Of a DNA stretch of 64,000 nt, positions 8,221 through 62,325 are shown piece after piece. The number at the start of each line of letters is the position of its first letter. The stretch's first letter is position 1. Location: contig NZ_CXSU01000012.1 in the NCBI RefSeq assembly GCF_001403795.1, positions 608,216 to 672,215 of the forward strand, given 5' to 3'. Both the position numbers and the translations under genes were made by a program. The notes under the pieces were generated by a model. It did not search any database. It saw nothing but the letters and a program-made list of their open reading frames with translations, and was not told the origin of the DNA. The DNA comes from Jannaschia donghaensis. GTDB taxonomy: Bacteria > Pseudomonadota > Alphaproteobacteria > Rhodobacterales > Rhodobacteraceae.

Positions 8221-8320
8221 GGGGCCTCCGGGTGGGTCACTGCGTTCCGCGCGTCCTAGCAGGGTCCGGGACCGGGCGCTAGATGTATGCCGTGGCATAC
8301 CGCGTTAGGGAACGACGGGA

Positions 8321-9149: not shown

Positions 9150-9150
9150 G

Positions 9151-9804: not shown

Positions 9805-9952
9805 CGGTGTTCCTTTGTCGCGTCGGTTGACGGGGCGCGGCGGGCGCGGGTAAATCCGCCCATCCAAGCCCCTGTGCGGTGTTTATACGCAGGTAAGGGA
9901 CGGGACCTGCATCGTCAATCAGCCGTCGTGGGACGGCACCCGAGGGAACGCC

Positions 9953-10411: not shown

Positions 10412-10467
10412 GCGATCATCGGGGTGCTGCCCCGGACCCCAGGGACATTTTGACCAAAGGAAGCGAC

Positions 10468-33871: not shown

Positions 33872-33912
33872 CGAAGGGCCTCCGTCGGTCGAAAAAGGGC
33901 GGCGGATTTCAG

Positions 33913-33952
33913 GGGTGATCCACGGGTGATCTGTGGGTGATCTGCGTCACCC
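33913..33952. repeat. three tandem 11-bp repeats plus hairpin between soeA and soeB
   Basis: GGGTGATC begins at 33913, 33924 and 33935, an exact period of 11. The last unit joins a short dyad, GGGTGA (33935-33940) with TCACCC (33947-33952). It lies in the 127-bp soeA-soeB gap, 42 bp before the soeB start. Confidence 0.7.
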
Positions 33953-33998
33953 GTATCGGATCGCACCGTGGGCGGGTAATATTGCAAGTTCTGTGCGG

Positions 33999-37801: not shown

Positions 37802-37832
37802 GCCGCCGCCCGGATTATCGTTTGGAAACAGA

Positions 37833-45368: not shown

Positions 45369-45546
45369 GTCGGGATCATCGCGAAGCGCCTCTCCGGGCA
45401 AATGGCGAAATCTAACGTCTTTTGGTCGATATCCGTACAAGCGGTGCGTCCGATGCCGCTAGCCTAATTAAGGATGCCGCGCCGCGCCCCGCACCGGCCT
45501 CCCAACCATATACAACCAACAGGATCGCTTGATCCGGGAGAGAATG

Positions 45547-46431: not shown

Positions 46432-46460
46432 TCGCGGCCTGACCGTTAGGAACAGGCGTT

Positions 46461-46490
46461 GGGCCGTCGCATTCCGCGGCGGCCCGTTTT
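46461..46490 (+). terminator. Rho-independent terminator after the binding-protein gene
   Basis: GGGCCGTCGC (46461-46470) pairs with GCGGCGGCCC (46476-46485) with one wobble and an ATTCC loop, followed by GTTTT. It lies 30 bases past the stop and explains separate, high-level expression of the binding protein. Confidence 0.85.
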
Positions 46491-46511
46491 CGTGGACGTG
46501 GAGTGTGCCGG

Positions 46512-47387
46512 ATGGAGAATGGCAAGGTGAAGGTGGCGGTCGCGCAGGTCGATTCGCATCTGGGGAAGCTGGAGCGCAACGTCGAGGACCACCTTGAGGT
46601 CATCGCCGAAGCGCGATCCGACGGGGTCGATTGCCTGCTCTTTCCCGAGATGAGCCTGACCGGTCACAGCGCCGGGCATCTGGCGCTGGAGATGGCGATC
46701 GCGCGCGATCATGACTTCGTCACCCGGCTGGCGCAGGCGGCGGGGCCGATGTGCACGACCTTCGGCCTGATCGAGGAGGGGCCGGCGGCGCAGTTCTACA
46801 ACGCCGCGATCACGGTGCGCGACGGACGGGTCATCCATCTGCACCGCAAAATCAACCTCGCCACCTATGGCCAGCTCGACGATGGCAAGCATTTCGCGCC
46901 CGGCCGCTATATCGAGACCTTCGATCTGGGCGGAGGCTGGCGCGCAGCGACGCTCATCTGCAACGATCTGTGGAACCCCGCGCTCATCAGCCTGGCCGCG
47001 CTGCACGGCGCGACGCTGTTGCTGGCACCCGTGTCCTCGGCGCGCGAGGCGGTGGGGGCGACGTTCGACAACCCCGGCAGCTGGGATATCGCCTGTCGGT
47101 ATTCGAGCATGGTCTACGGGATGCCGATGCTCTTCGCCAACCGCGTGGGGCAGGAGGGCGAGATGTCGTTCTGGGGCGGCAGCCGGATCGTCGACGCCTT
47201 TGGAACGACGATGGCCTGCGCGGACGAAGCCGTGGGCCTGACGACCGCGACGCTCGATTTCGAGCAGGTCCGTCAGGCCCGCGCACGCCTGCCCACGGTG
47301 CGCGATTCCAACCTCGATCTGCTGGTGCGCGAGACGACGCGGCTGCAGCACGACCTTGGCGTGCCCGAAACCGTGCGCCGACGCTGA
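46512..47387 (+). CDS. nitrilase-superfamily carbon-nitrogen hydrolase
   Basis: The 291-residue product has the nitrilase Glu-Lys-Cys triad: Glu in CLLFPEMSLTG, Lys in HLHRKINLATYG and Cys in ATLICNDLWNP. Family members hydrolyse amides, carbamoyl groups or nitriles; LATYGQLDDGKHFAPG is like the glutaminase domain of NAD synthases, so an amidase role is likelier than a nitrilase. GTG at 46503 could also start it. It converges on a LysR gene with 4 bases between and lies within the betaine gene set, but its substrate is unknown. Confidence 0.8.
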   Translation: MENGKVKVAVAQVDSHLGKLERNVEDHLEVIAEARSDGVDCLLFPEMSLTGHSAGHLALEMAIARDHDFVTRLAQAAGPMCTTFGLIEEGPAAQFYNAAITVRDGRVIHLHRKINLATYGQLDDGKHFAPGRYIETFDLGGGWRAATLICNDLWNPALISLAALHGATLLLAPVSSAREAVGATFDNPGSWDIACRYSSMVYGMPMLFANRVGQEGEMSFWGGSRIVDAFGTTMACADEAVGLTTATLDFEQVRQARARLPTVRDSNLDLLVRETTRLQHDLGVPETVRRR

Positions 47388-47391
47388 GGTT

Positions 47392-48351
47392 TCAACTGGG
47401 CCAGGTGAGGTCGTCCGCGACCCAGGGCATGGCCTCGTCCAGACGGGGCATGACTTCGACGGCGAGGATCGCGCGACAGACGGTGGCGACGCGCGCGGGC
47501 AGATCCCCCATCTCGCCGCGCCGCGCCGCGAGGCGAATGCTGCGGGTGAAGCGCCCGCGCGGCATCGGATCGACGGTCAGACGGGGCAGCTGCGCCCATT
47601 CCTGCGCCAGACACAGCGGCGTCGTCATCGACCAGCCCATTCCGGCGGCAACCGCCGCAAGCTGACCGGTGGCCGTGTCGAACTCAACGCCGAACGGTAT
47701 ATCGAGGTCGAGGCGGCGGAGTTGTCGCTCGATCTGTCGTCCGATGGAGGAGCGCAGGGAATAGCGCACGAAGGGCCGCGTCGCGAGCTGCGCAAGATCG
47801 GGTCGCGCGCCCGTCTTGGCGATGGCCTGCACCAGGACGAAGGGTTCGATCAGGATCGGGTGCAGTTCGACGCCGTCGATATCGTCGAGGTCGGTGCCCG
47901 TAGTCACGATCATGTCGACCGTATGATCGAGCAGCGCCTCGTGCTGATCAGGAGAGATGCCGGACCAGATGCGCCAGTGCTCTGCCGCGTCGGCCATGCG
48001 CGAGACGAGGATGGGGCCAACGGTGTTGGCCACGCTTTCCGCCATGCCTATGGTCAGGCTGGCCCGCCGGATCTCGCCCGTGTCGCGCAGGCGGTGGAAC
48101 GTCTGGGTCGCGTCCGCCAGCAGCATGCGGGCCTGCCGGTGCAGGACCGAGCCGGGTCCGGTCAGCGCGATGGGCCGGATCGCGCGGTCGAAGAGCACGA
48201 TCTCCAACGCCTCCTCCAGGGTGGAGACCGCTTGGCTGACGCTGGACTGCGTCATGCCAAGGTGCCGCGCGGCCGCCGACATGCCACCCGTCTCGACGAC
48301 GGCGACGAAGATGCGCAGCGCGCGAAGATCGAACCCGGGGGGCAATGTCAT
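47392..48351 (-). CDS. LysR-family transcriptional regulator
   Basis: The 319-residue product has the N-terminal winged helix (LRALRIFVAVVETGGMSAAA, RHLGMTQSSVSQAVSTLEEA) and a C-terminal periplasmic-binding-like effector domain. It lies 41 bases after soxG on the same strand, so it may be the last gene of the sox operon or have its own promoter. The likely targets are the sox genes or the nearby hydrolase; the effector is not known. Confidence 0.85.
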   Translation of the reverse strand: MTLPPGFDLRALRIFVAVVETGGMSAAARHLGMTQSSVSQAVSTLEEALEIVLFDRAIRPIALTGPGSVLHRQARMLLADATQTFHRLRDTGEIRRASLTIGMAESVANTVGPILVSRMADAAEHWRIWSGISPDQHEALLDHTVDMIVTTGTDLDDIDGVELHPILIEPFVLVQAIAKTGARPDLAQLATRPFVRYSLRSSIGRQIERQLRRLDLDIPFGVEFDTATGQLAAVAAGMGWSMTTPLCLAQEWAQLPRLTVDPMPRGRFTRSIRLAARRGEMGDLPARVATVCRAILAVEVMPRLDEAMPWVADDLTWPS

Positions 48352-48392: not shown

Positions 48393-48953
48393 TTAGCCGG
48401 GTGTATCCATCCCGCCCGCAGTCTCCAGCCGCTCCACCAGGTCGCGCGCAAAACCCCGGTAGGCCAGCAGCCGCCATTCGTCTTCGGCCCGGCGGTGCAG
48501 CGTGACGCCGATGCCATCGAACGTCGTTTGCGCGCAGGCCCCGATGGGAAAGGCCGTGTCGTGCAGGTCGATCGCGATGCCCTTCGACAGGATCCAGCGC
48601 GCGCGCGGGCCTTCGAGGTCGAGCGCGACGCGGGCGTGAGACAGGTCGGTGACGACGCCCGTCTCGGGCGGGATCCGTGACAGACGGTCGAAGAGGTCGG
48701 GGGTGTCGGAGGATAGCAGCGCCGTGTTCGGCCCGATGTCGAGCGCCGCCACGCCGTCTTTCGTCTTACTGCCGCAAGGCGCGGGCATGGGCGGCAGGCT
48801 TGCAGCGTCCAGTGCCGTCGCCAGCGCGTCCGATCCGCCGGGCCAACCCGCAACTTGGCAGAGTGACCCAAGGTGCACTTCGGTTAGCGTCGCGTGGTGC
48901 AGGGGGGCGAAGGCATGGTCCGCAATGGGCGAGAGGGCTTCGATGTCAGGCAC
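48393..48953 (-). CDS. soxG: sarcosine oxidase gamma subunit
   Basis: SoxG is the small structural subunit of heterotetrameric sarcosine oxidase. The 186-residue product matches by size, by position after soxA and by the GcvT-like pattern ARWILSKGIAIDLHDTAFP and the TTFDGIGVTLHRRAEDEWRL end region. It overlaps the 3' end of soxA by eight bases. Sequence conservation in this subunit is low, so position is the main support. Confidence 0.88.
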   Translation of the reverse strand: MPDIEALSPIADHAFAPLHHATLTEVHLGSLCQVAGWPGGSDALATALDAASLPPMPAPCGSKTKDGVAALDIGPNTALLSSDTPDLFDRLSRIPPETGVVTDLSHARVALDLEGPRARWILSKGIAIDLHDTAFPIGACAQTTFDGIGVTLHRRAEDEWRLLAYRGFARDLVERLETAGGMDTPG

Positions 48954-51885
48954 GCAGGCGATCTCCCTCGGGGTCGACGAAATGGGGCGAGACGACTTCG
49001 ACAGGCACGCTCTCGTCCTTCAGGGGATAGGCCGCGTCGAGATGCTCGCCCATTCGGTCGGGCCCGTTGCGGAGCAGCGCCAGCGCGATCTCCGCGTCCA
49101 GTTCGGGGCTGAAGGTCGTGGAAGTGACGTGGCCCTGCGGCCGTCCGTCGGACCCGACCAAATGCGCGCCGGGCCGGATCGGTGCGCCCGAGCGCGACCG
49201 CAATCCAACCAGCCGGGGTCGAGCCCCATCGGTCAGCGCGGGGCGATGCATCATCGCCGAGCCGACATAGGCCTTCTTGGTGGAGGCGAAGCCGGCGAAT
49301 CCAAGGTCGTGTACCGTCGTGCGCCCGTCGAGCTCCGCGCCCGAGATGTGGCCCTTCTCGATCCTCAGCGCGCCGAGCGCCTCGGTGCCGTAAGGCACGA
49401 TCCCGTGCGCCTCGCCCGCCGCCATGATCGCCGCCCAGACACCGGCCCCGTGATGCGCGCCGCAGAACACCTCGTAGGCCAGCTCGCCCGAGAACGACAG
49501 CCGCGCGACGGTCACCGGAACGCCGCCCAACGTGCCCCGCGCGATCCCCATGAAGGGCAGCGTGTGCGTGGCGAAGTCGACGTCCGCGATCAGCCCTGCC
49601 AGCACATCGCGCGACTTCGGCCCGGCGACGGCCATGCCGGCCCATTGTTCGGTCACGGATGTGAGGCGCACGCGCAGGTCGGGCCAGGCGGTGGCGAGCA
49701 GAACCTCAAGATGCGTGAGGACGCGACCGGCATTCGCGGTGGTCGTCGTCATCAGGAAGCGATGCTCCTCCAGCCGCCAGGTCGTGCCGTCGTCCAGCAC
49801 GATGCCGTCCTCGCGCAGCATGATGCCGTAACGCGCCCGTCCCACCGGCAGCCTGGCGAAGCCGTTGACGTAGACGCGGTTCAGGAATTCCGCCGCATCC
49901 GGCCCCGCGACTTCGATCTTTCCCAGGGGGGAGACATCGACGATGCCGACACCCGCGCGTACGGCCCGCGCCTCCCGGATATAGGCGTCGCGGATCGTCT
50001 CGCCGTCCCGCAAATAGGCACGGGGCCGCATCCATTGGCCGGCCGCGACCCAGAGCGCGCCATGGGCCGCGTGCCAGTCGTGCATCGGCGTGCGACGGAC
50101 GGGGGCCAGATGCGCGCCGGTCTCTGCCCCGGCGAGCGCGCCGAGGGCCACGGGCGTGTAGGGCGGACGGTAGCGGGTGGTGCCGGCCTGCGGCACCGGG
50201 ATGCCCCGCGCCTCGGCCATGAGCGCGAGGCCGTTGAGGTTCGATGTCTTGCCCTGATCGGCCGCCATGCCCAGCGTGGTGTAGCGCTTGAGGTGTTCGA
50301 CCGCCTCAAACCCCTCGCGCTGCGCCAGCATCACGTCGTCGGCGGTCACATCGTGCTGCAGGTCGACGAAGGCCTTGCCCTTGCCCGGCACCCGCCAGAG
50401 CGGCAGGGGATCGGTCGGCACGAGGTCGTCGCGGGCCAAGGTCGGTTCGGCCGGTGCGGCATCGAAGTCGCAGGCCGCGGCGGCGCGGATGCCGGCCTCG
50501 GCGCCCTGCGCGAAGGTCTCGGTCAGGGCGCCGAGGCCGCCGACGCTGCCCGCGATCTGCCAGCGGTCGGGCAGGGTACCGGGCAGGAAGCTCGCCTGGT
50601 CCTCCGACCAGACGGGTTTGCCGCCGCCCTGGCTGGTCAGGTGGAGGTTCGGCATCCACCCGCCCGAGACGGCCAGCGTGTCGCAGTCGATCCGGAGGCC
50701 GCCGGTCAGCGTTATGCCGGTCAGGCGCGACCTACCCCGTGTGGCGCAGACGGTCGCGCCGGTCTTGTGGCGCGCGCCGGTGGCGGCGACGACGGCACAG
50801 GCCTCGGCCGACACCTGCGGTCGCGCGTCGATCACGGCGGCGATCCCGACACCGGCGGCATGCAGATCCCGCACGGTGCGGTACGCGCCATCATGCGTGG
50901 TGAAGACGACGACGCGGCGGCCCGGCGCCACGCCCCAGCGGGTGGCGTAGGTGCGCGCCGCTTCGGCCAGCATGACGCCCGGACGGTCGTTTCCGGGAAA
51001 GACGATGGGCCGTTCGGTGGCGCCCGCCGCCAGCACGATCTGCAGTGGCCGGATCAGCCAGTGGCGCTGCCGGGGTGCGCGGCCCGGCGCGGCGACGTGA
51101 TCGGCGACGCGCTCCACCGCGGCGAATTGCCCGTCGTAGTGGCCATAAACGGTCGTGCGTGGCAGGGCGGTCACCCAGGGTAGCGCGGCGAGGTCGGCTT
51201 GCGCGGCCGCGGCGAAGGCGGCGGAGGGCTGGCCTTCGATCTCGCCCGCGTCTGAGAGCAGATGGCCGCCGAAGCGCTCGCCTTCGTCCGCGATGACGAC
51301 GCGAGCCCCCGTCCCGGCGGCCGCGCGGGCCGCCGCGAGGCCCGCCGGCCCCGCCCCGATCACCAGCACGTCGCAGTGAAGATGCGCGGTCTCGTAGCGG
51401 TCCGGGTCGGGTGCCAGGCTGGCCTTCCCCATTCCGGCGGCGCGTCGGATGATCGGCTCGAAAAACTTGGTCCATGTGCCGCGCGGCCCGCCCATGAAGG
51501 TCTTGTAATAGAAGCCCGCCCCGAAGAGCGGCCCGGCCAGGCCGTTGACCGCCATCGCGTCGAACCGCAGCGAGGGCCATGCGTTCTGCCCCGATGCCAC
51601 CAGCCCGTCCCAGAGCGGGATCATCGGGGCCTTTGCGTTGGGCTCGGACCGGGCACCATCGCGCAGGGTGACGAGCGCTGATGGCTCCTCGGACCCGGCC
51701 GAGACGATGCCGCGGGGGCGGTGGTACTTGAACGAGCGGGCCAGGACGTCGACGCCCTCGGCCATGAGCGCCGAGGCCAACGTATCGCCCTCGTACCCGT
51801 CGAAGCGGCGACCATCGAAGGTGAAGCGCAGCGGGCGGCTTCGGTCGATGCCGGTGCCGCCCTGGTCGAGACGATAGCCGCTCAT
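48946..51885 (-). CDS. soxA: sarcosine oxidase alpha subunit
   Basis: SoxA takes electrons from SoxB, binds NAD and folate, and passes the methyl carbon to tetrahydrofolate. The 979-residue product has an N-terminal ferredoxin-like domain (TFDGRRFDGYEGDTLASAL), an NAD/FAD Rossmann motif VLVIGAGPAGLAAARAAAG, and a C-terminal GcvT/aminomethyltransferase domain (RAGVGIVDVSPLGKIEVAGP, GTEALGALRIEKG). The start at 51885 overlaps soxD by four bases; the longer open frame upstream lies inside soxD. Length is normal. Confidence 0.95.
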   Translation of the reverse strand: MSGYRLDQGGTGIDRSRPLRFTFDGRRFDGYEGDTLASALMAEGVDVLARSFKYHRPRGIVSAGSEEPSALVTLRDGARSEPNAKAPMIPLWDGLVASGQNAWPSLRFDAMAVNGLAGPLFGAGFYYKTFMGGPRGTWTKFFEPIIRRAAGMGKASLAPDPDRYETAHLHCDVLVIGAGPAGLAAARAAAGTGARVVIADEGERFGGHLLSDAGEIEGQPSAAFAAAAQADLAALPWVTALPRTTVYGHYDGQFAAVERVADHVAAPGRAPRQRHWLIRPLQIVLAAGATERPIVFPGNDRPGVMLAEAARTYATRWGVAPGRRVVVFTTHDGAYRTVRDLHAAGVGIAAVIDARPQVSAEACAVVAATGARHKTGATVCATRGRSRLTGITLTGGLRIDCDTLAVSGGWMPNLHLTSQGGGKPVWSEDQASFLPGTLPDRWQIAGSVGGLGALTETFAQGAEAGIRAAAACDFDAAPAEPTLARDDLVPTDPLPLWRVPGKGKAFVDLQHDVTADDVMLAQREGFEAVEHLKRYTTLGMAADQGKTSNLNGLALMAEARGIPVPQAGTTRYRPPYTPVALGALAGAETGAHLAPVRRTPMHDWHAAHGALWVAAGQWMRPRAYLRDGETIRDAYIREARAVRAGVGIVDVSPLGKIEVAGPDAAEFLNRVYVNGFARLPVGRARYGIMLREDGIVLDDGTTWRLEEHRFLMTTTTANAGRVLTHLEVLLATAWPDLRVRLTSVTEQWAGMAVAGPKSRDVLAGLIADVDFATHTLPFMGIARGTLGGVPVTVARLSFSGELAYEVFCGAHHGAGVWAAIMAAGEAHGIVPYGTEALGALRIEKGHISGAELDGRTTVHDLGFAGFASTKKAYVGSAMMHRPALTDGARPRLVGLRSRSGAPIRPGAHLVGSDGRPQGHVTSTTFSPELDAEIALALLRNGPDRMGEHLDAAYPLKDESVPVEVVSPHFVDPEGDRLRA

Positions 51886-52139
51886 GCCTGCGTCCCCGCC
51901 ATGGTCGCGCCGAAAATCTCGTGCGTCACGGTATCGCGCCGCACGGTCAGGACCGAGCGGCAGCCGGCGGTGTGCTGCCAATGTTCCGCGTGCCGGCCCA
52001 TGGGGTTGGTGCGCAGGTAGAGGTAGTCGGCCCAATCGCCCTCCGGTGCGTCGAGTATCGGGCGGTTGCGCGTGGCGTCGCCCACATAGGTGAATTCGGC
52101 GAGGTCGCGGAGGCCGCAGTGGGGGCAGGGGATCAGCAT
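51882..52139 (-). CDS. soxD: sarcosine oxidase delta subunit
   Basis: SoxD is the small zinc-binding subunit. The 85-residue product has CPHCG at residues 5-9, conserved DWADYLYLRTNPMGRHAEHW and a later Cys in HTAGCRSVL, matching the Cys/His zinc set of the family. It lies 10 bases after soxB and overlaps soxA by four bases. Confidence 0.94.
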   Translation of the reverse strand: MLIPCPHCGLRDLAEFTYVGDATRNRPILDAPEGDWADYLYLRTNPMGRHAEHWQHTAGCRSVLTVRRDTVTHEIFGATMAGTQA

Positions 52140-52149: not shown

Positions 52150-53406
52150 TCAATGAAGCTGAGGAGAGGGGCCTATGCCCTTCTCGTCGAGGGTTCGGCC
52201 GGCGGCGAAGCGGTCGAGGCGGAAGGCGGCATTGAGCGCGTGGGGTTCGTCGCGGGCGATGGTGTGGGCGAAGCAGAAGCCCGAGGCGGGCGTTGCCTTG
52301 AAGCCGCCATAGCACCAGCCCGCATTGAGATAGAGGCCCGGCACCGGCCCGACGTCGATGATGGGCGAGCCGTCCATCGACATGTCCATCACGCCGCCCC
52401 AATGCCGCAGCAGCCGCAGGCGGGCGAGGTTGGGGAACATCGACACCGCCTCGGCGGCGACATGGCGGATGACGGGCATGTTGCCGCGCTGCGCGTAGGA
52501 ATTGTAGCCGTCGATGTCGCCCCCGAACACCAGCCCGCCCTTATCGGACTGGCTGATGTAGAGGTGGCCCGCGCCGAAGGTGACGACCGTGTCGATCAGC
52601 GGCTTGAGTGGTTCGGAGACGAAGGCCTGCAGCACGTGGCTTTCGATCGGCAGGCGATCGAGGCCGGCGAGGCGCATCAACTCGGACGTGTGCCCCGCCA
52701 CGGCGACGCCCACCTTCGGAGCGCGGATCGCGCCACGCGTCGTTTCGACCCCGACAATCCGGTCGCCGTCGCGGATGAAGCCCGTCACGCCGCAATTCTC
52801 CAGAATGTCGACGCCGAGCTTGTCCGCCGCCCGCGCATAGCCCCAGGCGACGGCATCGTGGCGCGCGGTGCCAGCGCGCGGCTGGATCATGCCGCCGACG
52901 ATGGGAAAGCGCGCGCGGTCCGAGACATCGAGACCGGGTAGGCGGGCGGCGACCTCCTCGCGGGTCATCAGCTCCGCGTCGATCCCCTCGAGCCGCATGG
53001 CGTTGCCGCGCCGCGCGAAGGCGTCCATCTGCGCGGACGTATGGGCGAGGTTTATGACGCCGCGCTGCGAGAACATCACGTTATAGTTGAGCTCCTGGCT
53101 CATCTCCTCCCAGAGCTTCATCCCGAGCTCGTAGAAGCGCGAATTCTCGGGCAGCATGTAATTGGAGCGGATGATCGTGGTATTGCGCCCGACATTGCCG
53201 CCGCCGATCCAGCCCTTTTCGACCACGGCGATATTGGTCAGCCCGTGTTCCTTGGCGAGGTAGTAGGCCGTGGTCAGGCCATGTCCGCCGCCGCCCACGA
53301 CGATCGCGTCATAGGCGGGCTTGGGCGTCGCGGCGCGCCACTGGCGGGGCCAGCGCGCGTTGCCGGTCAGGGCATTCGCGACGAGCGAGAAAACGGAATG
53401 GCGCAT
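52150..53406 (-). CDS. soxB: sarcosine oxidase beta subunit
   Basis: SoxB oxidises sarcosine to glycine at FAD and passes electrons to a covalent FMN. The 418-residue product has the dinucleotide motif IVVGGGGHGLTTAYYLA near residues 35-51 and the ARHDAVAWGYARAAD segment, whose His (about 183) corresponds to the FMN-bearing His of known sarcosine oxidases. The start at 53406 has GGAGG about ten bases upstream; the open frame continues further but into the promoter region. It is first in soxBDAG. Confidence 0.95.
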   Translation of the reverse strand: MRHSVFSLVANALTGNARWPRQWRAATPKPAYDAIVVGGGGHGLTTAYYLAKEHGLTNIAVVEKGWIGGGNVGRNTTIIRSNYMLPENSRFYELGMKLWEEMSQELNYNVMFSQRGVINLAHTSAQMDAFARRGNAMRLEGIDAELMTREEVAARLPGLDVSDRARFPIVGGMIQPRAGTARHDAVAWGYARAADKLGVDILENCGVTGFIRDGDRIVGVETTRGAIRAPKVGVAVAGHTSELMRLAGLDRLPIESHVLQAFVSEPLKPLIDTVVTFGAGHLYISQSDKGGLVFGGDIDGYNSYAQRGNMPVIRHVAAEAVSMFPNLARLRLLRHWGGVMDMSMDGSPIIDVGPVPGLYLNAGWCYGGFKATPASGFCFAHTIARDEPHALNAAFRLDRFAAGRTLDEKGIGPSPQLH

Positions 53407-53648
53407 CCGGGTCGGACCTCCTCGCGTATAGTTTAGAGGCATCCTGGCGGAAGGGGAGTAGTATCGCAGAACCCGGTCGATGATATCGGCAGGGCCGATG
53501 ATCCCGGTCGCGCGCCGGGCGATATGGTCGGAATCTGCCGGGGGGCCGTCGGGTCCTGCGCCGTGCCGGGCCGCCGGGGCGGAAAACACTAGGGTGGGAC
53601 ACCTCGTCGCGGTACGTTGCTGGCGATCCTGCGGAACCCGGGGGCCGA
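53407..53648. promoter_or_regulatory. divergent promoter region between soxB and the ABC permease
   Basis: The 242-bp gap between two divergent operons must hold both promoters. A relatively AT-rich spot (CGCGTATAGTTTAGAGG, 53424-53440) lies just upstream of soxB. No operator of a known factor was identified with confidence. A GbdR-like or LysR-type factor from this cluster is the natural candidate. Confidence 0.5.
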
Positions 53649-54305
53649 ATGGAAATCCTGAGCTATATCTTCGACAACCTCGGCCTGATCGGCGAGCGGA
53701 CGCTGGAGCATATCGCGATCGTGGTTGTCGCCGTGGGCCTCGCCATTCTGACGGGCGTCCCGCTGGGCATCGCCATCACCCAGAACCAGCGCGCCGCCGA
53801 CATCGTGCTTTACGTCGCGGCGATCATCATCACGGTGCCGTCGATCGCGCTCTTCGGTGTGATGATCCCGATCCTGTCGGTGATCGGGCAGGGCATTGGC
53901 TACCTGCCGGCCGTGATCGCGGTGCTCCTCTATTCGCAGTTGCCGATCATCCGGAACACCTACACCGCTATCTCCAACGTCGATCCCGCCCTGCGCGAGG
54001 CGGCCAAGGGCGTGGGCATGACCCCGTTCCAGCGGCTGCGCCAGGTGGAGATTCCACTGGCCGTGCCGGTCATCATGGCGGGCGTGCGGACCGCCGTCGT
54101 GATGAACATCGGTGTCGCGGCCATCGCCGCCTACATCGGTGCAGGTGGCCTTGGCACCTTCATCAGCCGCGGCATCAGCCAGACAGATCCGCGGCAGTTG
54201 ATCACCGGGGCACTGGCCGTCTCGGTGCTGGCCGTTGCCGCTGATTTCGGCCTGCTCTGGCTGCAGAAGAAACTGACGCCCCGGGGCATCCAGATCCCCC
54301 GCTGA
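53649..54305 (+). CDS. quaternary-amine ABC transporter permease (OpuBB/ProW type)
   Basis: This 218-residue inner-membrane protein has about six helices and the permease EAA loop LREAAKGVGMTPFQRLRQVE, which contacts the ATPase. GAGGLGTFISRGI is the typical C-terminal segment. It is the first gene of the permease-ATPase-permease operon. The binding protein is the gene at 45547-46431, most likely. Confidence 0.92.
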   Translation: MEILSYIFDNLGLIGERTLEHIAIVVVAVGLAILTGVPLGIAITQNQRAADIVLYVAAIIITVPSIALFGVMIPILSVIGQGIGYLPAVIAVLLYSQLPIIRNTYTAISNVDPALREAAKGVGMTPFQRLRQVEIPLAVPVIMAGVRTAVVMNIGVAAIAAYIGAGGLGTFISRGISQTDPRQLITGALAVSVLAVAADFGLLWLQKKLTPRGIQIPR

Positions 54306-54315: not shown

Positions 54316-55434
54316 ATGATCCGTTTGGAAGACCTTACCAAGATATTCGAGACGCCCGCCGGCGAGGTCGTGGCCTCGGACCGGGTGAACATGGAAGTGC
54401 CAGAGGGCGAGATCTGCGTGTTGCTGGGCCCCTCGGGCTGCGGCAAGACGACGACGATGAAGATGGTCAACCGGCTGGTGTCGCCCACCTCGGGCAAGAT
54501 CTACATCAACGACAAGGACACCGACGCCTACGATCCGATCAAGCTGCGCCGCACGATCGGCTACGTGATCCAGCAGATCGGTCTGTTCCCCAACAAGACC
54601 ATCGAGGATAATATCTGTGCCGTGCCCGACCTTCTGGGGTGGGACCGCAAGAAGTCGCGCAAGCGGGCGTCGGAGCTTCTGGAGATGGTGGCGCTCGATC
54701 CCGGCACCTTCCTCAAGCGCTATCCCAAAGAGCTTTCGGGCGGGCAGCAGCAGCGCGTCGGCGTGATCCGGGCGTTGGCCGCAGACCCGCCAGTGATGCT
54801 GATGGACGAGCCGTTCGGGGCCATCGACCCGATCAATCGCGAGGTGATCCAGGACGAGTTCCTTCGGATGCAGGGTGAATTCAAGAAGACGATCATGTTT
54901 GTGAGCCACGACATCGACGAGGCGGTCAAGATGGCCGACAAGATCGCCATCTTCGACGCCGGCAAGCTGATCCAGTATGACGCGCCCGATGACCTTTTGG
55001 CGCATCCGAAGAATGCTTTCATCGCCGATTTCGTGGGCGGCGACCGGACGCTGAAACGCCTGCGCCTGATCACGGTGGGCGAGGCGATGATGGCCGATCC
55101 GCCCAAAGTCACCGCCGAGGAAACGCTGGACAAGGCGACCAAGCTGATGGAGGAGCACGGCCATATATCGGTTGTGATGACGGGGCCGAAGGGCCGCGCG
55201 CGGGGCATCGTCTATCTGGCGGATGCGCGGGGGGCCAAGGGAAAGGTGGGCGAGCATCACCACAAACTGCCCGCGACGATCCACATGCGAGAAGACCTGC
55301 GCACCGCCGTGTCGATGATGTTCACCCACGACGAAACCTCGCTGGCCGTGGTCGACGACGACGGGTTCTACAAGGGATACGTTACGCAGCGGGGCATCAC
55401 GCACCTGCTGGGTGCCACGTATCGTGACACCTGA
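54316..55434 (+). CDS. quaternary-amine ABC transporter ATP-binding protein with CBS domains
   Basis: The 372-residue product has Walker A GPSGCGKT at residues 38-45, the signature LSGGQQQRVGVIRAL near 140-154, Walker B VMLMDEPFGAIDP and the switch His in FVSHDIDEAV. After residue about 250 there are two CBS-type repeats (RLITVGEAMMADPPKVTAEE and the ISVVMTGPKGRARGIVYLAD region), the osmosensing module seen in OpuA/OpuC ATPases. It follows the first permease by 10 bases and overlaps the second by one. Confidence 0.95.
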   Translation: MIRLEDLTKIFETPAGEVVASDRVNMEVPEGEICVLLGPSGCGKTTTMKMVNRLVSPTSGKIYINDKDTDAYDPIKLRRTIGYVIQQIGLFPNKTIEDNICAVPDLLGWDRKKSRKRASELLEMVALDPGTFLKRYPKELSGGQQQRVGVIRALAADPPVMLMDEPFGAIDPINREVIQDEFLRMQGEFKKTIMFVSHDIDEAVKMADKIAIFDAGKLIQYDAPDDLLAHPKNAFIADFVGGDRTLKRLRLITVGEAMMADPPKVTAEETLDKATKLMEEHGHISVVMTGPKGRARGIVYLADARGAKGKVGEHHHKLPATIHMREDLRTAVSMMFTHDETSLAVVDDDGFYKGYVTQRGITHLLGATYRDT

Positions 55435-56291
55435 TGGCCCGCACCACCAGACCGGCCACGCTGGACGCGATGGAGACGGAGACGCCGGGGCGTTCGGGCG
55501 TGCTGGGCGTGCTACGCTCGGGCATCGACCGGATGGCCGGCTCGACACTGCTGGCGGCGGCGATCGAGGGCGATCAGGTCGGCCGCGCCTGGCGCTGGAT
55601 GGTGCTTGCGGCGATCTTCGCCTCCGGGGCCTGGGCCTGGGCGTCCGGGCTTCTGCCCGACATCCTCGCGCTGCAGGAAGATATTCTTTACCTCCTGAAT
55701 CAGCACATCGGCATGGTCGTGATCTCGGGCGGGCTGGCCATCGCGATCGGCATCCCTTTGGGCATCTGGCTGTCGCGTCCGTACATGCGCAGATACGCCG
55801 AAAGCCTGATGCAGATCCTCAATATCGGCACCACGATTCCAACGCTGGCGATCCTGGCGCTGTCGATGAGCGTGCTGGGCATCGGCACGACGCCCGCGAT
55901 CTTCGGGCTGTTCGTCGCGACGCTCTTGCCGATCGTGCGTAACGCCTATGCCGGGTGCCAATCGGTGCCGCCGCATCTGATCGAGAGTGCGACGGGCATG
56001 GGCATGACGCCGCTGCAGATCCTGCGGCGAGTCGAAGTGCCGAACGCCCTCTTCGTGATCTTCGCGGGCGTGCGCACGGCGCTGGCGATCAATGTCGGTA
56101 CCGTGCCGCTTGCCTTCCTGATCGGCGGCGGCGGCCTGGGGGAGCTGATCTTCCAGGGCATCGCGCTCAACGATTTCGGCATGATGCTGGCGGGCGCGAT
56201 CCCGACGGCGCTGCTGGCGATCCTCGTCGATTTCCTCCTGGCGCAATGCCAGTACTGGCTGATCCCGCGGGGTGTGAACCCGCTCCGTTGA
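55434..56291 (+). CDS. quaternary-amine ABC transporter permease (second subunit)
   Basis: The 285-residue product has a longer N-terminal part with an extra helix (WMVLAAIFASGAWAWASG) and then the same five- to six-helix core as the first permease. The EAA-like loop is LIESATGMGMTPLQILRRVE; GGGGLGELIFQGIALNDFG follows. It begins at the last base of the ATPase stop (TGATG). Two different permeases indicate a heterodimeric importer. Confidence 0.93.
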   Translation: MARTTRPATLDAMETETPGRSGVLGVLRSGIDRMAGSTLLAAAIEGDQVGRAWRWMVLAAIFASGAWAWASGLLPDILALQEDILYLLNQHIGMVVISGGLAIAIGIPLGIWLSRPYMRRYAESLMQILNIGTTIPTLAILALSMSVLGIGTTPAIFGLFVATLLPIVRNAYAGCQSVPPHLIESATGMGMTPLQILRRVEVPNALFVIFAGVRTALAINVGTVPLAFLIGGGGLGELIFQGIALNDFGMMLAGAIPTALLAILVDFLLAQCQYWLIPRGVNPLR

Positions 56292-56394: not shown

Positions 56395-58812
56395 ATGAAG
56401 ACCCATGCCCAAGCCGTCGTCATCGGAGGCGGCCTCGTCGGCTGCTCGATCCTCTATCACCTGGCCAAGCTGGGCTGGTCCGATGTTGTCCTGCTGGAAC
56501 GGGACGAACTGACCTCTGGCAGCACCTGGCACGCGGCGGCGAATATCCACGGCCTGCATGACAGCACCAACATCAGCCGCATCCAGCATTACACGATGAA
56601 CCTCTACAAGGAGTTGGAGGCCGAGACGGGTCAGGGCTGCGGCGTGTTTCAGCCCGGCTCGCTCTACCTCGCCCAGACCGAAGAGCGCGAGCACCAATTG
56701 CGACTGCAGGAGGCGAAGGCGCAGCTCTACGGCCTCAACTTCCGCGAGGCGAGCCGCGACGAGGCGCAGGAACTGCACCCTTTGGCCAATTACGATGGCA
56801 TCCGCTGCATCATGTACGAGCCCGATGGCGGCAACGTCGACCCCTCGGGCGTGACCCAAGCCTATGCCGCTGGCGCCCGGAAGCTCGGCGCGCAGATCGA
56901 GCGGTTCTGCCCGGTGACGGCGACCGAACAGCAGCCCGATGGCACTTGGATCGTGCGCACGCCCAAGGGCGATATCAACACGCAATGGGTGGTCAATGCG
57001 GCCGGTCTCTGGGGTCGGGAAGTGGCGGCGATGGCGGGCATCACCCTGCCGCTGCAACCGACCGAGCATCAGTATTTCGTCACCGAGACCATGCCTGAGA
57101 TCGCGGCGATGGGCCGCCGCCTGCCGTCCATCGCCGACCGCGATGGAGAGTATTACCTGCGCCAGGAGGGCCAGGGCCTGCTGATCGGTGCCTATGAGAA
57201 GGATGTGCGCTTCTGGGCCGAGGAGGGCACGCCGCAGGGGTTCGGGCACGAGCTTTTCGCCGACGACCTGGAGCGGATCATGGAGAACGTGTTGCGCGCG
57301 ATGGACCGGGTGCCGGCCGCCGCCGTGGCGGGGGTCAAGCGCGTCATCAACGGGCCTATGATCTGGTCGCCCGACTCCAACGCGCTCTATGGGCCGGTGC
57401 CGGAACTCAGGAACTACTTCTGCTGTACCGGCATCATCCCCGGCTTCTCGCAATCGGGCGGGCTGGGTCTGATGAGCGCGCAGTGGATCATCGATGGCGA
57501 GCCGCAGTACGACATGTTCGCCTGGGATCTGGCGCGGTTCGGCGATTGGGCCGACAAGCGGTTCACCAAGGCGCGGGTCGCCGACCAATACGCGCACCGC
57601 TTCTCGATCCATTTCCCCAACGAGGAACGCAGCGCCGGACGCCCCGCCCGCGTCCGTGGCACCTACGACGATATGAAGGCGCGGGGCGCCGTCTTCGGGA
57701 TGAACTGCGGGTGGGAGCATCCGCTGTGGTACGCCAATACGCCTGGGGTCGAGGAGACCATCGGCTTCACGCGCCAGAACTGGTTCGAACCGGTCAGCGC
57801 CGAGGCGCGGATGCTGCGCGAGCATGTCGGCGTTATCGACATCTCGAACTTCGCCAACTACGTCGTGCGCGGCCCGGGGGCGCGCGACTGGCTCGACGCG
57901 CTTTTCGCCAATCGGATGCCGCGCGAGGTGGGGCGGTCCTGCCTGACGCCGCTGATCGGGGTGCGGGGCGGCATCGCGGGCGATTTCACGGTCACGATGG
58001 TGGCCGAGGACGAATTCATGGTCATCGGCTCGGGCATGGCCGAACGTTACCACCAGCGGTTCTTCAACGCGCTGCCCCTGCCCGAGGGGACGACGTTCGA
58101 GAACCGGACGGACACGACCTGCGGCTACAATATCGCAGGGCCGAAAGCGCGCGACCTGCTGCAACGGCTGACCAATGCGGATCTGTCGAACGAGGGGTTC
58201 CGCTTCATGCGCTCGCGCACGATCGAGGTGGGCGGCACCCGCTGCCTTGCCCTTCGGGTCAGCTTCACCGGCGATCTGGGGTGGGAGCTGCATTGCGACG
58301 CTGCCGACCAGGCCGTTTTGGCGAAGACGCTGCTCGACGCGGCGGTCGATCTGGGGGGCGGGCCGGTGGGCAGCCGCGCGCTCGGTGTGCTGCGCATCGA
58401 AAAGGGCTACGGCAGTTGGGGTCGGGAATATTCGCCGGAATACTGGCCTCAGGAGGTGGGCCTGGATTTTTTGGTGAAGCCCGAGAAGGAATTTCTCAAC
58501 AAGGCCGCCTGGATGAAGGTAAAGGACAAGATCCCTCGTGAACGCCTCGTGGCCTTCGAGCTGGACGTGACCGAGGGCGCGGATGCCAGCGGCGGCGAGC
58601 CGGTGTTCCTGCCCGATGGCACGCCCGCGGGCCGCGTCACCTCGGGGGCCTATGGCGCGTCGGTGGGCAAGTCGCTGGCGCTGGGATTCATCAAGGACGG
58701 TACCGCGCAGCCCGGCGACGACGTGCACGTCTATGTGTTGGGCAAGCCTCATACAGGCCGCGTGCTGACGCAGCCGGCCTTCGACCCGGAGGGACTACGG
58801 CTCCGCGCCTGA
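56395..58812 (+). CDS. FAD/GcvT-domain amine dehydrogenase (dimethylglycine dehydrogenase-like)
   Basis: The 805-residue product has an N-terminal DAO-type FAD domain (AVVIGGGLVGCSILYHLAKL; TSGSTWHAAANIHG, the segment with the conserved His) and a C-terminal GcvT tetrahydrofolate-binding domain (about residue 430 to the end: HVGVIDISNFANYVVRGPGA, SRALGVLRIEKGYGSWGREY). DMGDH removes a methyl from dimethylglycine to give sarcosine and methylene-THF. Here it lies beside the importer and 3 kb from sarcosine oxidase, so dimethylglycine is the simplest substrate; other N-methyl amino acids are possible. It starts 104 bp after the permease. Confidence 0.88.
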   Translation: MKTHAQAVVIGGGLVGCSILYHLAKLGWSDVVLLERDELTSGSTWHAAANIHGLHDSTNISRIQHYTMNLYKELEAETGQGCGVFQPGSLYLAQTEEREHQLRLQEAKAQLYGLNFREASRDEAQELHPLANYDGIRCIMYEPDGGNVDPSGVTQAYAAGARKLGAQIERFCPVTATEQQPDGTWIVRTPKGDINTQWVVNAAGLWGREVAAMAGITLPLQPTEHQYFVTETMPEIAAMGRRLPSIADRDGEYYLRQEGQGLLIGAYEKDVRFWAEEGTPQGFGHELFADDLERIMENVLRAMDRVPAAAVAGVKRVINGPMIWSPDSNALYGPVPELRNYFCCTGIIPGFSQSGGLGLMSAQWIIDGEPQYDMFAWDLARFGDWADKRFTKARVADQYAHRFSIHFPNEERSAGRPARVRGTYDDMKARGAVFGMNCGWEHPLWYANTPGVEETIGFTRQNWFEPVSAEARMLREHVGVIDISNFANYVVRGPGARDWLDALFANRMPREVGRSCLTPLIGVRGGIAGDFTVTMVAEDEFMVIGSGMAERYHQRFFNALPLPEGTTFENRTDTTCGYNIAGPKARDLLQRLTNADLSNEGFRFMRSRTIEVGGTRCLALRVSFTGDLGWELHCDAADQAVLAKTLLDAAVDLGGGPVGSRALGVLRIEKGYGSWGREYSPEYWPQEVGLDFLVKPEKEFLNKAAWMKVKDKIPRERLVAFELDVTEGADASGGEPVFLPDGTPAGRVTSGAYGASVGKSLALGFIKDGTAQPGDDVHVYVLGKPHTGRVLTQPAFDPEGLRLRA

Positions 58813-59670
58813 CGCCAGGAACGCGTGAAGCAAGCGCGCTTCGCGGGTCGCGAGCAGGCTCTCGTCCGACAGGGCTGTGACCCAGGGGCTCTCCACATCA
58901 TCGAGCGGCGCGATCAGCAGGCCGCGCGCGATGAAAGGCGCGGCGGCGGCGGCGGGCACGACGGCGAGGCGATTGCCGCGCGCCGCCATCTCCATCGCGA
59001 CGTTGAGCGAGTTGGTCCGTGTGCCGCCGCGCGGATCGAGGGTGTCGAGCTGGAAGTGACGCCCGACCGCCGCCCAGTAATCGGGCCGACCGAGGTTGTG
59101 GATCAGACCCGCCTTCGCGATCTGCGCGGGCGCGGCGAAGGGCCCCCCGTCGATCACTGCATCGGGTGCCGCCAGCACGCGCAGCCGGTCGGTCCAGAGC
59201 ACGGTTGCCGATTTCGGCAGGTCGTTTGCGAGTGCCGAGACGATACGAATGTCGGCTACCTCCGGATCCTCGTCCTTCCAGACGCGCCCGTGCACGGTGA
59301 CGGCGATGTCGGGATGCACCTCCGCGAAGGCGGTGAGGCGATCAGTCAGCCAGTTCGAGGCGAGGCTGATCGGGCAGGAGATGACAACGCGGCGGTCGTG
59401 GCGCGGCGACATGATCGCCTCGGTCGCCGCATCGACCTGCGCCAGTGCGTAGCGCACCGTAGGCAGATAGGCCTCGCCCAAAGAGGTCAGCGCCAGGCTG
59501 CGCGCGAAGCGCACGAAGAGCGGCCGACCGATGAATTCCTCGAGCGATCGGATGTGACTGCTGACCGCCGATTGCGTGTAGTTCAGCTCGTCGGCGGCCG
59601 TCGTGAAGCTGAGGCTGCGGGCGGCAGCTTCGAAGGAGCGCAGGTGATTGAGGTGGGGCAGATGGTTCAT
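58795..59670 (-). CDS. LysR-family regulator (GcvA-like)
   Basis: The 291-residue product has the winged helix LRSFEAAARSLSFTTAADEL and NYTQSAVSSHIRSLEEFIGR followed by an effector domain with a GcvA-like start (RRVVISCPISLASNWLTDRL). It is divergent from the MttB-family gene with 133 bp between and convergent on the DMGDH-like gene with 18 bp overlap. It is the natural candidate to control mttB. Confidence 0.88.
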   Translation of the reverse strand: MNHLPHLNHLRSFEAAARSLSFTTAADELNYTQSAVSSHIRSLEEFIGRPLFVRFARSLALTSLGEAYLPTVRYALAQVDAATEAIMSPRHDRRVVISCPISLASNWLTDRLTAFAEVHPDIAVTVHGRVWKDEDPEVADIRIVSALANDLPKSATVLWTDRLRVLAAPDAVIDGGPFAAPAQIAKAGLIHNLGRPDYWAAVGRHFQLDTLDPRGGTRTNSLNVAMEMAARGNRLAVVPAAAAAPFIARGLLIAPLDDVESPWVTALSDESLLATREARLLHAFLASGAEP

Positions 59671-59803: not shown

Positions 59804-61342
59804 ATGGCACGCGAAGGACGCAAGGGCGGGCGCAGAGGCAATGCCGATCGTGCCGGGACGGGCATACAGCAACTGCCGTGGCGGCAGGCCCACAACACCT
59901 ACCGCCCGATGGAAGTTGTCACCTCCGAACAGCTCGAGATGATCCACGACACTTCGCTGCGGGTTCTGTCCGAGGCCGGGATCCGCGTGATGAGTCCCAC
60001 GGTCATGGACCTGTTCGAAGGCGCGGGGGCTATCGTCGACCGCGACACGATGACGATCCGCATCGATGCCGAAATCGTGGACCAGGCGCTTAAGACCGTG
60101 CCCGAAAGCTTCGACATGGTTGCCCGCAATCCGGACAAGCGCATCACGATGGGCGGCACCGCGATGAACTTCGGCCTGGTTGCCGGGCCGCCCAACGTAC
60201 ACGACATGATCGGCGGCCGGCGGCAGGGCAACCACGCCGATTACGTCAACTTCATCAAGCTCGCGCATCACTTCAACGCGGTCACCATGATCGGCAATCA
60301 GGTCTGCGCGCCTATGGAAATGCCCGCGAACCAGCGGCATCTGGACACCTACCTGGCCAACATCACCTATTCCGACCTCACCTTCCACTGCACCGCCATC
60401 GGGCGGGGCCGGGCGATGGACGGCATCAACATGATGGCGATCAGCCGGGGCATCACGCCGGAGCAGATGGCCGAAACGCCGGGTGTCATCACCATCATCT
60501 CGGTCAATTCCCCGCGCCTTCTGGACGAGGCGATGACCGACGGTCTAACGGCAATGGCCGAGCACATGCAGCCCGTGACCATCACGCCCTTCACCCTGAT
60601 GGGCGCGATGACGCCCGTGACGCTGCCGGCGGCGATGGCGCAGCAGAACGCCGAGGCGCTTTTCGGCGTGGTGCTGACGCAGCTGGTGAAGCCGGGCGCG
60701 CCGGTGATGTACGGGGCCTTTACGTCGAACGTCGACATGAAATCCGGCGCGCCTGCCTTCGGGACCCCCGAGAACACCAAGGCGAACATCATCGCCGGGC
60801 AACTGGCCCGCCGCTACGGCATCCCGTACCGGACATCGAACGCAAACGCGTCGAATACCGTGGACTTGCAGGCGACCTACGAGACGATGATGTCGACCTG
60901 GGGCGCGGTGCTGGGCGGCGCGAACCTCATCTACCACGCGGCGGGCTGGATGGAGGGGGGGCTGACGGCGAGCTACGAGAAGTTCATCCTCGACGTCGAG
61001 ATCATCCAGAACATGACCGAGTTCCTGCGCCCCATCGACTTTTCCGAGGCCGAATTGGGCCTCGACGCGATCAAGGACGTGCCGACCGGGGGCCACTTCT
61101 TCGGCAGCCCGCATACGATGGAGCGCTACGAGACGGCCTTCTACAAGCCGCTTCTATCGGATTGGACGAACTACGAGAATTGGTTGGCGAACGGCGGGCA
61201 CGACGCGCTGCACCGCGCGACGGCCCTGTGGCAAAGGGCGCTTGAGGAGTATCAGGCCCCGCCAATGGACCTCGCGGTGGTCGAGGCTCTGGACGCCTAT
61301 GTCGCCCGTCGTCGCGAAGAGATCGGAACCGGAGAACCCTGA
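59804..61342 (+). CDS. MttB-superfamily methyltransferase without pyrrolysine
   Basis: The 512-residue product belongs to the trimethylamine methyltransferase superfamily: LRVLSEAGIRVMSPTVMDLF, RNPDKRITMGGTAMNFGLVA, TYLANITYSDLTFHCTAIGR, PVMYGAFTSNVDMKSGAPAF. There is no in-frame TAG, so it is a non-Pyl member. Characterised members demethylate quaternary amines such as glycine betaine, proline betaine and carnitine onto a corrinoid protein. A corrinoid protein gene is not seen in this window. The ATG at 59804 has GAGAGG upstream; earlier ATGs in frame fall in the divergent promoter. A GlxA-type regulator follows two bases later. Confidence 0.88.
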   Translation: MAREGRKGGRRGNADRAGTGIQQLPWRQAHNTYRPMEVVTSEQLEMIHDTSLRVLSEAGIRVMSPTVMDLFEGAGAIVDRDTMTIRIDAEIVDQALKTVPESFDMVARNPDKRITMGGTAMNFGLVAGPPNVHDMIGGRRQGNHADYVNFIKLAHHFNAVTMIGNQVCAPMEMPANQRHLDTYLANITYSDLTFHCTAIGRGRAMDGINMMAISRGITPEQMAETPGVITIISVNSPRLLDEAMTDGLTAMAEHMQPVTITPFTLMGAMTPVTLPAAMAQQNAEALFGVVLTQLVKPGAPVMYGAFTSNVDMKSGAPAFGTPENTKANIIAGQLARRYGIPYRTSNANASNTVDLQATYETMMSTWGAVLGGANLIYHAAGWMEGGLTASYEKFILDVEIIQNMTEFLRPIDFSEAELGLDAIKDVPTGGHFFGSPHTMERYETAFYKPLLSDWTNYENWLANGGHDALHRATALWQRALEEYQAPPMDLAVVEALDAYVARRREEIGTGEP

Positions 61343-61344
61343 TT

Positions 61345-62325
61345 ATGGCGAAGCCTCCTTCGTCTTTGCCCTTTAGGTTGGCCCCGGATCACCCGATCGA
61401 TGTAGCTATGCTCCTCGTGCCCGGCTTCTCGATGCTGTCCACGATCACGGTTCTCGAAACTATGCGCATCGCCAACCGTCTTGCCGAACGGGATGTCTTC
61501 GCTTGGTCGACCGCTTCCGAAGACGGCGCGCCGGTCCGATCGTCGCTCGACATGGCCTTTCCCGTCGATGGTCCGCTGGGTAATCCCCGATCTGGATCCA
61601 TAATTCTGGTATGCGGCGGCACGGACGTGCAGGCGACGGCGTCACGCCAAACGATGGCCTGGTTGCGCAAATGTATTTCTCATGGAGTCTTCGTCGGCGG
61701 GTTGTGTACCGGCAGCTACGTTCTGGCCAAGGCGGGCCTTCTGCAGGGGCGGCGCGTCACGATCCACTGGGAACAGAGCGACAGCTTCGCGGAGAATTTC
61801 CCGGACGTCGATCTGAGCACTGCGCCCTACGAGATAGATGGTGGCACGCTCTCGACCGCCGGTGGGACGGCAGGCATCGATCTCTTCCTTGAGGTGCTGC
61901 GCCAATCAGGTCAGTCGACCCTGGCCCATGAGGTTGCGGCACAATTGATGTACGTCAACATTCACGACCTGCAAGCCCGTTCCGACATCAGGCGCCCGTC
62001 GCGAATGAAGGTGCGAAATTCCAAGGTCGTGGCCGCTGTGACGCGAATGGAGGCGAGTGTAGAGAACGTCGTGCCGATCGCAGATTTCGCGGATCATGTG
62101 GGGGTCTCGGTCCGACAACTCGAGCGCCTGTTCAAGACCTACATGGGGGGTACGCCGACGCATTACTATATGCGCCTGCGGTTGGATCGAGCGCTGCGTT
62201 TGCTGTTGCAGACAGATATGACATTGACGGACGTAGCATTTGCGACGGGCTTCCAAACATCGAGCGGATTCGCTCGCAAGTTCCGCGAGCGGTTCGGGCA
62301 TCCTCCATCAAAACTGAGGCGCTGA
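61345..62325 (+). CDS. GlxA-family regulator (GbdR-like)
   Basis: The 326-residue product has a DJ-1/PfpI-like domain (VAMLLVPGFSMLSTITVLET, GGLCTGSYVLAKAGLLQG with the elbow Cys retained, VTIHWEQSDSFAENFPDVDL) and a C-terminal AraC double HTH (VGVSVRQLERLFKTYMGGTP, DVAFATGFQTSSGFARKFRE). GbdR in pseudomonads has this form and activates betaine, dimethylglycine and sarcosine catabolism. It starts two bases after the mttB-family gene, so it is in that operon and probably controls it and other genes of this cluster. Confidence 0.87.
   Translation: MAKPPSSLPFRLAPDHPIDVAMLLVPGFSMLSTITVLETMRIANRLAERDVFAWSTASEDGAPVRSSLDMAFPVDGPLGNPRSGSIILVCGGTDVQATASRQTMAWLRKCISHGVFVGGLCTGSYVLAKAGLLQGRRVTIHWEQSDSFAENFPDVDLSTAPYEIDGGTLSTAGGTAGIDLFLEVLRQSGQSTLAHEVAAQLMYVNIHDLQARSDIRRPSRMKVRNSKVVAAVTRMEASVENVVPIADFADHVGVSVRQLERLFKTYMGGTPTHYYMRLRLDRALRLLLQTDMTLTDVAFATGFQTSSGFARKFRERFGHPPSKLRR

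Follow-up and report, generated by a model that had tools for sequence, protein, structure and literature searches.

Cobalamin- and tetrahydrofolate (THF)-linked demethylation of betaine in aerobes, with components in common with a split methionine synthase, is already known from Ruegeria pomeroyi, in which MtgC/MtgD-dependent betaine use was shown (Mausz et al. 2025, PMC12478193). The MtgBCD(E) system described there for strain DSS-3 has the same make-up as the genome studied here: an aerobic alphaproteobacterium carrying a PF06253 protein, MtgC, MtgD, a RamA-like protein and a DUF1638 protein, with parts common to the split methionine synthase and with demethylation of dimethylglycine and sarcosine downstream. 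In that paper, the MtgB candidates SPO2108 and SPO2134 are supported by proteomics and homology, the levels of two PF06253 proteins increase on N-osmolytes, and added methionine does not enable an mtgC mutant to use betaine. Phaeobacter inhibens splits its methionine synthase over individual genes for the Bmt, corrinoid, pterin, RamA-like and DUF1638 proteins (PMC5764234), and our genome has a homologue of each; the study deals with methionine synthesis, and its text does not mention 'betaine'. In vitro, the Bmt of P. inhibens produces methionine from betaine as well as from DMSP (PMC12366255). Our genome also resembles, by description only, the anaerobic acetogen Eubacterium limosum, in which a corrinoid partner serves several MttB paralogues (MtpB, MtcB, MtyB and MthB), each with its own quaternary amine (PMC8604678, PMC12155760, PMC12478193).

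The first-pass annotation of the window, by which we mean the whole 64,000-nucleotide stretch of Jannaschia donghaensis DNA analysed here, had proposed that an MttB homologue could convert betaine to dimethylglycine, as the best candidate for an under-described system. Because of the result of Mausz et al. 2025 this general hypothesis is already in print, and the description as under-described has to be given up.

The mttB gene and its cluster

We observed a complete frame of 512 amino acids at 59804-61342 on the forward strand, whose ATG start at 59804 is preceded by the purine-rich GAGAGGGGCAG. It has no internal stop and therefore no pyrrolysine TAG. The protein matched PF06253 (MttB superfamily, PF06253/COG5598) with 654 bits against a cut-off of 25, over positions 3-500 of the 500 of the profile. 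Assignment to the pyrrolysine MttB, a trimethylamine methyltransferase, was rejected, as TIGR02369 scored 296.9, below its cut-off of 525, and no in-frame TAG is present. The AlphaFold model (mean pLDDT 77.2) matched 4yyc, 2qne and 9yce, with Foldseek E values of 3.3e-38 to 4yyc and 1.4e-37 to 2qne and a TM of about 0.7, although the details of this fold match are unsure because of the rmsd of about 15 and the mean pLDDT of 77. The non-pyrrolysine MttB homologue named by the first-pass annotation is thus confirmed as a real MttB-superfamily gene, in a 3.48 Mb assembly of 13 contigs that is rated 99.99% complete.

A betaine-type importer, a dimethylglycine dehydrogenase (DMGDH)-like enzyme and sarcosine oxidase, all reported near mttB beforehand, were found as well. 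The quaternary-amine importer comprises an OpuAC/ProX/OsmF-type substrate-binding protein (45544-46431, +; PF04069 206 bits, ProX 1sw2 148.5 bits), a first permease (53649-54305, +; PF00528), an OpuCA/ProV-type ATPase with a CBS domain (54316-55434, +; PF00005, PF00571) and a second permease (55434-56291, +; PF00528). The flavoenzyme at 56395-58812 (+) has the DMGDH architecture (DAO, FAO_M, GCV_T, GCV_T_C) and scored 619 bits to the DMGDH structure 4p9s. Sarcosine oxidase is encoded on the reverse strand by SoxB (beta, 52150-53418; TIGR01373 702.9 over 529.45), SoxD (delta, 51882-52139; PF04267 103.4 over 27), SoxA (alpha, 48946-51888; TIGR01372 1304.6 over 1164) and a more weakly matched SoxG-like gamma subunit (48393-48953; PF04268 25.9 over 21, TIGR01375 102 under 143.95), the starts of SoxB and SoxA having been chosen by us. 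Divergent from mttB lies a LysR regulator (58795-59670, -; PF00126/PF03466), a homologue of which accompanies mttB in 56 of the 63 long orthologue loci. Downstream, separated by 2 bp, a GbdR-like AraC/GATase1 regulator (61345-62325, +; DJ-1_PfpI and HTH_18, with the GbdR model at 249 bits below its cut-off of 480) is probably co-transcribed with mttB. The remaining genes encode a second LysR regulator (47392-48351, -; LysR-type models, all below their cut-offs), a carbon-nitrogen hydrolase of the nitrilase superfamily (46512-47387, +; PF00795 102.9 bits) and an MmgE/PrpD-family protein (44031-45368, +; PF03972 140 bits, PF19305 109 bits), a recurrent kind of partner in the clade of the window MttB, whose nearest solved kin are weak (IRG1-like 73 bits, iminodisuccinate (IDS) epimerase 61 bits).

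Elsewhere in the window, at 32211-39611 (-), lies what we take from its translations to be a sulfonate cluster, with an Xsc-like TPP enzyme (37833) and Pta (36815). Its genes at 33999, 33098 and 32211 (-) presumably form a molybdoenzyme/FeS/NrfD-type set, which could be a SoeABC-type sulfite dehydrogenase.

Corrinoid, folate and flavoenzyme partners in the genome

The first-pass annotation had placed the corrinoid acceptor outside the window and suggested a genome search for the DxHxxG motif and for a corrinoid-THF methyltransferase; each search turned up a candidate. One MtgC-type corrinoid protein of 232 amino acids is encoded at C12:1269925-1270620, with PF02607, PF02310 and the motif GDIHDIGKNLV, though the MtgC-named NCBIfam models scored below their cut-offs (180 against 370, 174.7 against 310). 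Its neighbourhood, with Bmt/MtgE, a radical-SAM gene and DUF1638, is of the split-methionine-synthase type and resembles the split methionine synthase genes described for Phaeobacter (PMC5764234). The gene for the pterin-binding MtgD (NF005719 402.8 over 259) adjoins that for a RACo/RamA-like activator (PF14574 285 bits) at about 0.99 Mb on C12, and next to mtgD, in the MetF2 position, an open reading frame (L013:5323-6540) had no Pfam match and scored no higher than about 21 bits with MTHFR models. The MtgC, MtgD, RamA-like and DUF1638 genes are all outside the window, and thus candidates exist for the acceptor and the THF methyltransferase that had been missing. Classical MetH was rejected as the corrinoid partner, since the four genomic B12-binding matches lie in frames of 250, 733, 678 and 268 amino acids, all too short for full MetH. 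On contig C1, a small B12-binding-domain protein stands beside a PAS/HTH regulator, a pair that we take to resemble PpaA/PpsR of photosynthesis control and that suggests an aerobic phototroph. The GbcAB betaine monooxygenase route was rejected on its alpha subunit: GbcA is, as we assume, a member of PF00848, which had no match in this one genome, so that the absence of GbcAB noted for the window extends genome-wide for that family.

We surveyed 120 family genomes, one per genus and each at least 90% complete. An MttB-superfamily match was found in 113 of them, with up to 12 matches per genome. Any such match occurred together with an MtgC orthologue in 112 genomes, without it in one, MtgC alone occurred in three and neither in four (Fisher P 2.1e-5, relatedness not corrected; a partial MtgC match in G106 was scored as present), which agrees with the published R. 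pomeroyi system. The exception, G081, carries a core-type MttB (73%) and, with no MtgC orthologue, only a MetH-like match.

The genome encodes five FAO_M proteins (in the window, on C5, on C11 and two in tandem at L112) and two full SoxA proteins including the window copy; the second SoxA and the four other FAO_M proteins make two parallel demethylation routes possible. To mammalian DMGDH the cluster copy scored 619 bits and two other paralogues 482 and 454, three of the five being compared. The tandem pair, of DMGDH architecture, lies at 6207-11086 (-) of L112 (C12:1358000-1374000), beside what we take to be glnB/glnA-like genes. Window-type DMGDH (at least 62% identity) occurs in at least 48 of the 120 family genomes, a lower bound with up to eight candidates scored per genome, and is thus much more widespread than the window-type MttB; it is present in all seven genomes that carry the latter (Fisher P 0.0012), in each of which the only DMGDH copy at or above 62% among the matches listed sits within about 12 kb of mttB. 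In a DMGDH tree of 50 rows (near-copies dropped from 63; several long branches), six DMGDHs from loci lacking window-type MttB formed one clade (98/97), and the MttB-linked DMGDHs fell into two other clades together with those of three loci that also lack it: L180 of G031, next to LysR2 and HacidDH, L181 of G038, next to HyuA and Amdase, and L188 of G023, next to LysR2. These three genomes may either enter the pathway with a dimethylated substrate or rely on a different MttB.

Two MttB paralogues and the window-type clade

Besides the window copy, the genome carries a second MttB at C12:749628-751190, among genes that from their translations we take to be gltA/gltX/comEC/lexA-like. The putative trimethylamine methyltransferase of Sinorhizobium meliloti (4yyc) is the best PDB match of the window MttB in sequence (345 bits) and fold, yet it is closer kin of the other paralogue (669 bits); to MtgB of Desulfitobacterium hafniense (DhMtgB; 2qne, 9yce) the window copy scored 290 bits and the other 378. 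Of the 120 family genomes, 112 have the other type (identity at least 59%) and 7 have the window type (at least 72%). In a 49-row tree the two types formed separate, fully supported groups (100/100 for the window clade), and 4yyc and DhMtgB went with the other type, so that the window MttB does not group with the characterised MtgB; the tree is midpoint-rooted, with DhMtgB, the one characterised MtgB in it, on a long branch, and leaves out L129, L141, L143 and L144 (filter) and L115 (same as the window).

For DhMtgB, the betaine contacts Y94, N199, R309 and H345 were proposed from docking rather than from a ligand-bound structure (PMC6855144). At these positions the other paralogue has Y, N, R and H, whereas the window MttB has A, S, R and H, keeping two of the four predicted contacts. 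Thus the window protein, at 34.4% identity, shares with the enzyme of the anaerobic D. hafniense its fold and R309/H345, and differs from it in the Ala and Ser that replace Tyr94 and Asn199 and in its separate clade. Both replacements mark the window clade, Ala being found in 65 and Ser in 65 of 66 aligned rows (proteins of 450-560 amino acids, the window included, other cluster members being left out for length); elsewhere in the 49-row tree, the first position is G, S, C or A and the second is N. Retention of Arg and His would argue for a carboxylated substrate, and the loss of Tyr94 would give the pocket room. Judged by the tree and the contact residues, the window MttB is not a member of the MtgB group, and the other paralogue, with its closer relationship to MtgB, its matching pocket residues and its presence in nearly all family genomes, appears the better candidate for a glycine betaine methyltransferase.

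The neighbourhoods of the two types differ too. We kept 80 named orthologue loci of the window type, strains of Ruegeria, Leisingera, Tritonibacter and Mesorhizobium among them, from 97 pattern-scan matches and based the main count on the 63 of at least 18 kb, in which we observed a folate-linked demethylase (DMGDH-like, SoxA or SoxB) in 57, MmgE/PrpD in 53 and LysR2 in 56. None of these was found in 14 control loci of the other MttB type, which were hand-picked, not random, and of which L171, L172 and L175 are shorter (13.4, 12.5 and 17.5 kb); the gltA/gltX/comEC/lexA-like neighbours presumed for our own second mttB were not found in these 14 either. Over all 80 loci, any demethylase was near mttB in 68, PrpD in 61, a hydroxyacid dehydrogenase in 45, SoxA in 32, and hydantoinase A and a racemase/decarboxylase-type protein in 18 each; with SoxA in 32 and PrpD in 61, the partner set is not constant. 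Because 29 of the 80 loci are from Mesorhizobium, we also counted groups at 80% identity: among 10 groups, formed by the 57 of the 63 loci whose MttB was kept by ORF calling, a demethylase occurred in 9 and PrpD in 6, and one group (L018/L020/L094) had neither nearby. The six window-type loci of family genomes had a demethylase in every case and PrpD in four.

The importer binding protein lies near mttB in only four of the 80 loci (L020, L035, L077 and L083), and MtgC in one. The closest by synteny, L035 of Jannaschia sp. LMIT008, has binding protein, carbon-nitrogen hydrolase, permease, ATPase, permease, DMGDH, LysR, MttB and GbdR-like gene in window order, lacking the LysR-SoxGADB block. L083 carries importer, carbon-nitrogen hydrolase, PrpD, MttB, DMGDH, SoxB and SoxA on one strand, and this gene set ties the distant cluster end (44031-47387) to the window MttB. 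Further partners in relatives are a 2-hydroxyacid dehydrogenase, hydantoinase A/B, an arylmalonate-decarboxylase-type protein and an aminotransferase, to which Mesorhizobium/Hyphomicrobiales loci add two amidohydrolases and isochorismatase-type and DHDPS-type proteins. No single pathway deduced from these partner gene names fitted all relatives, and a limited literature search found no specific link of MttB to PrpD, hydantoinase, homarine, trigonelline or proline betaine. Outside Alphaproteobacteria, a direct MttB-MtgC linkage was seen in a Woeseiaceae MAG (L095), where a 55% relative of the window MttB and a 73% MtgC lie opposite each other, separated by a GbdR-like gene.

Proposed pathway and alternative readings

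On balance, we favour the reading that the window MttB is a corrinoid-dependent demethylase that uses the shared MtgC and MtgD and whose substrate is a carboxylated betaine, possibly one larger than glycine betaine. It would be a cobalamin-dependent quaternary-amine demethylase that, in an aerobe, borrows the corrinoid protein and THF methyltransferase of the split methionine synthase, and it most likely works within the published MtgCD system, of which it would represent, relative to R. pomeroyi MtgBCD(E), a rarer, non-core clade in an ABC-importer/PrpD cluster. The gene, its family and fold, its partner genes, its clade, the pocket residues and the neighbourhood were observed; we infer the individual reactions, taken from the named families, as well as the contacts between partners and the substrate class. 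A betaine would be brought in by the ProX/OsmF-type importer, and MttB would transfer a single N-methyl group to MtgC-bound cob(I)alamin. MtgD would then move the methyl to THF, with inactive cobalt re-reduced by the RamA-like protein with DUF1638, and the DMGDH-type and SoxBDAG flavoenzymes would take the remaining methyls to THF. MmgE/PrpD might act on the carbon skeleton of the betaine, and some of the methyl groups may be diverted by Bmt into methionine, in keeping with the in vitro activity of the P. inhibens enzyme (PMC12366255). The predicted carboxylate-side Arg and His, being kept, are the reason for proposing a carboxylated betaine; from the changes of Tyr94 to Ala and Asn199 to Ser, its body may differ from, and may exceed, that of glycine betaine. 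Tentatively, and with the real prospect of being wrong, we extend this to the whole clade: a distinct aerobic MttB lineage of Rhodobacteraceae and Mesorhizobium, linked to MmgE/PrpD and dedicated DMGDH/Sox-type demethylases, would open the complete N-demethylation of an alpha-substituted amino-acid betaine via the corrinoid protein of methionine synthase. An amino-acid betaine or a betaine-lipid headgroup would be a guess at examples.

Several observations count against the favoured reading. The contact residues come from docking, MtgC lies outside the window and is rarely near mttB in relatives, the partner set varies up to the group that has neither PrpD nor demethylase, and G031, G038 and G023 hold a DMGDH of the linked clades with no window-type MttB. 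Others fit glycine betaine itself: the cluster DMGDH is the closest of the three compared to the mammalian enzyme, each window-type genome keeps that mttB-linked copy, and the importer and GbdR-like regulator look typical of betaine. Because these four features fit, we retain as unlikely, yet deserving real weight, the reading that the window MttB is a glycine betaine methyltransferase, perhaps an inducible one beside the core paralogue, supplying dimethylglycine to the adjacent DMGDH and a true SoxBDAG; the rise of two PF06253 proteins on N-osmolytes in R. pomeroyi (PMC12478193) and the kept R309 and H345 are consistent with it. The separate clade, the loss of Tyr94 and Asn199 and the presence of a better MtgB candidate both in this genome and in 112 of the 120 family genomes argue against it, and the PrpD, hydroxyacid dehydrogenase, hydantoinase A and racemase/decarboxylase-type partners of relatives would be superfluous for glycine betaine. 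The betaine-to-dimethylglycine step assigned to this MttB by the first-pass annotation therefore stands as to its corrinoid and THF partners, which exist, and is weakened as to the enzyme, by the better paralogue, the two differing contacts and the MmgE/PrpD-type partners; overall that interpretation is partly supported.

It is improbable that betaine use bypasses the window MttB altogether, with the first betaine methyl going straight to homocysteine. The absence of BHMT had been correctly stated for the window, but the genome has a Bmt-like gene (Bmt/MtgE, L012:4645-5778, at about 1.27 Mb on C12; NF005718 558.1 over 338) and a second PF02574 protein at C11:261295, either of which might catalyse this transfer, as the Phaeobacter Bmt does with betaine in vitro. 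Among solved structures, however, the Bmt-like protein is nearest to methionine synthase modules (best 124 bits), with BHMT at only 29-40 bits, one methionine per betaine would presumably not carry bulk catabolism, and the R. pomeroyi mtgC mutant fails on betaine despite added methionine (PMC12478193); the earlier concern that a bhmt gene might fully account for betaine use is therefore only half borne out, by the existence of a Bmt homologue here and by the in vitro activity of the Phaeobacter enzyme. Least probable is that the window MttB has kept its fold and moved to another methyl donor or to a reaction without a quaternary amine, since N-demethylating flavoenzymes are linked in 57 of 63 loci and an OsmF-type importer in the window and four named loci, even though the pocket is changed and PMC12155760 regards what non-pyrrolysine members do as an open question.

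The window copy belongs to a separate branch and may have a substrate other than glycine betaine. With aerobic B12-dependent betaine demethylation established in print since 2025, the question becomes which quaternary amine each MttB paralogue accepts, and a clade marked by two diagnostic pocket residues and by partner genes that recur across loci offers a testable entry point. Since MttB matches occur in 113 of the 120 family genomes and reach 12 in a single genome, many MttB substrates in aerobes are likely still to be assigned.
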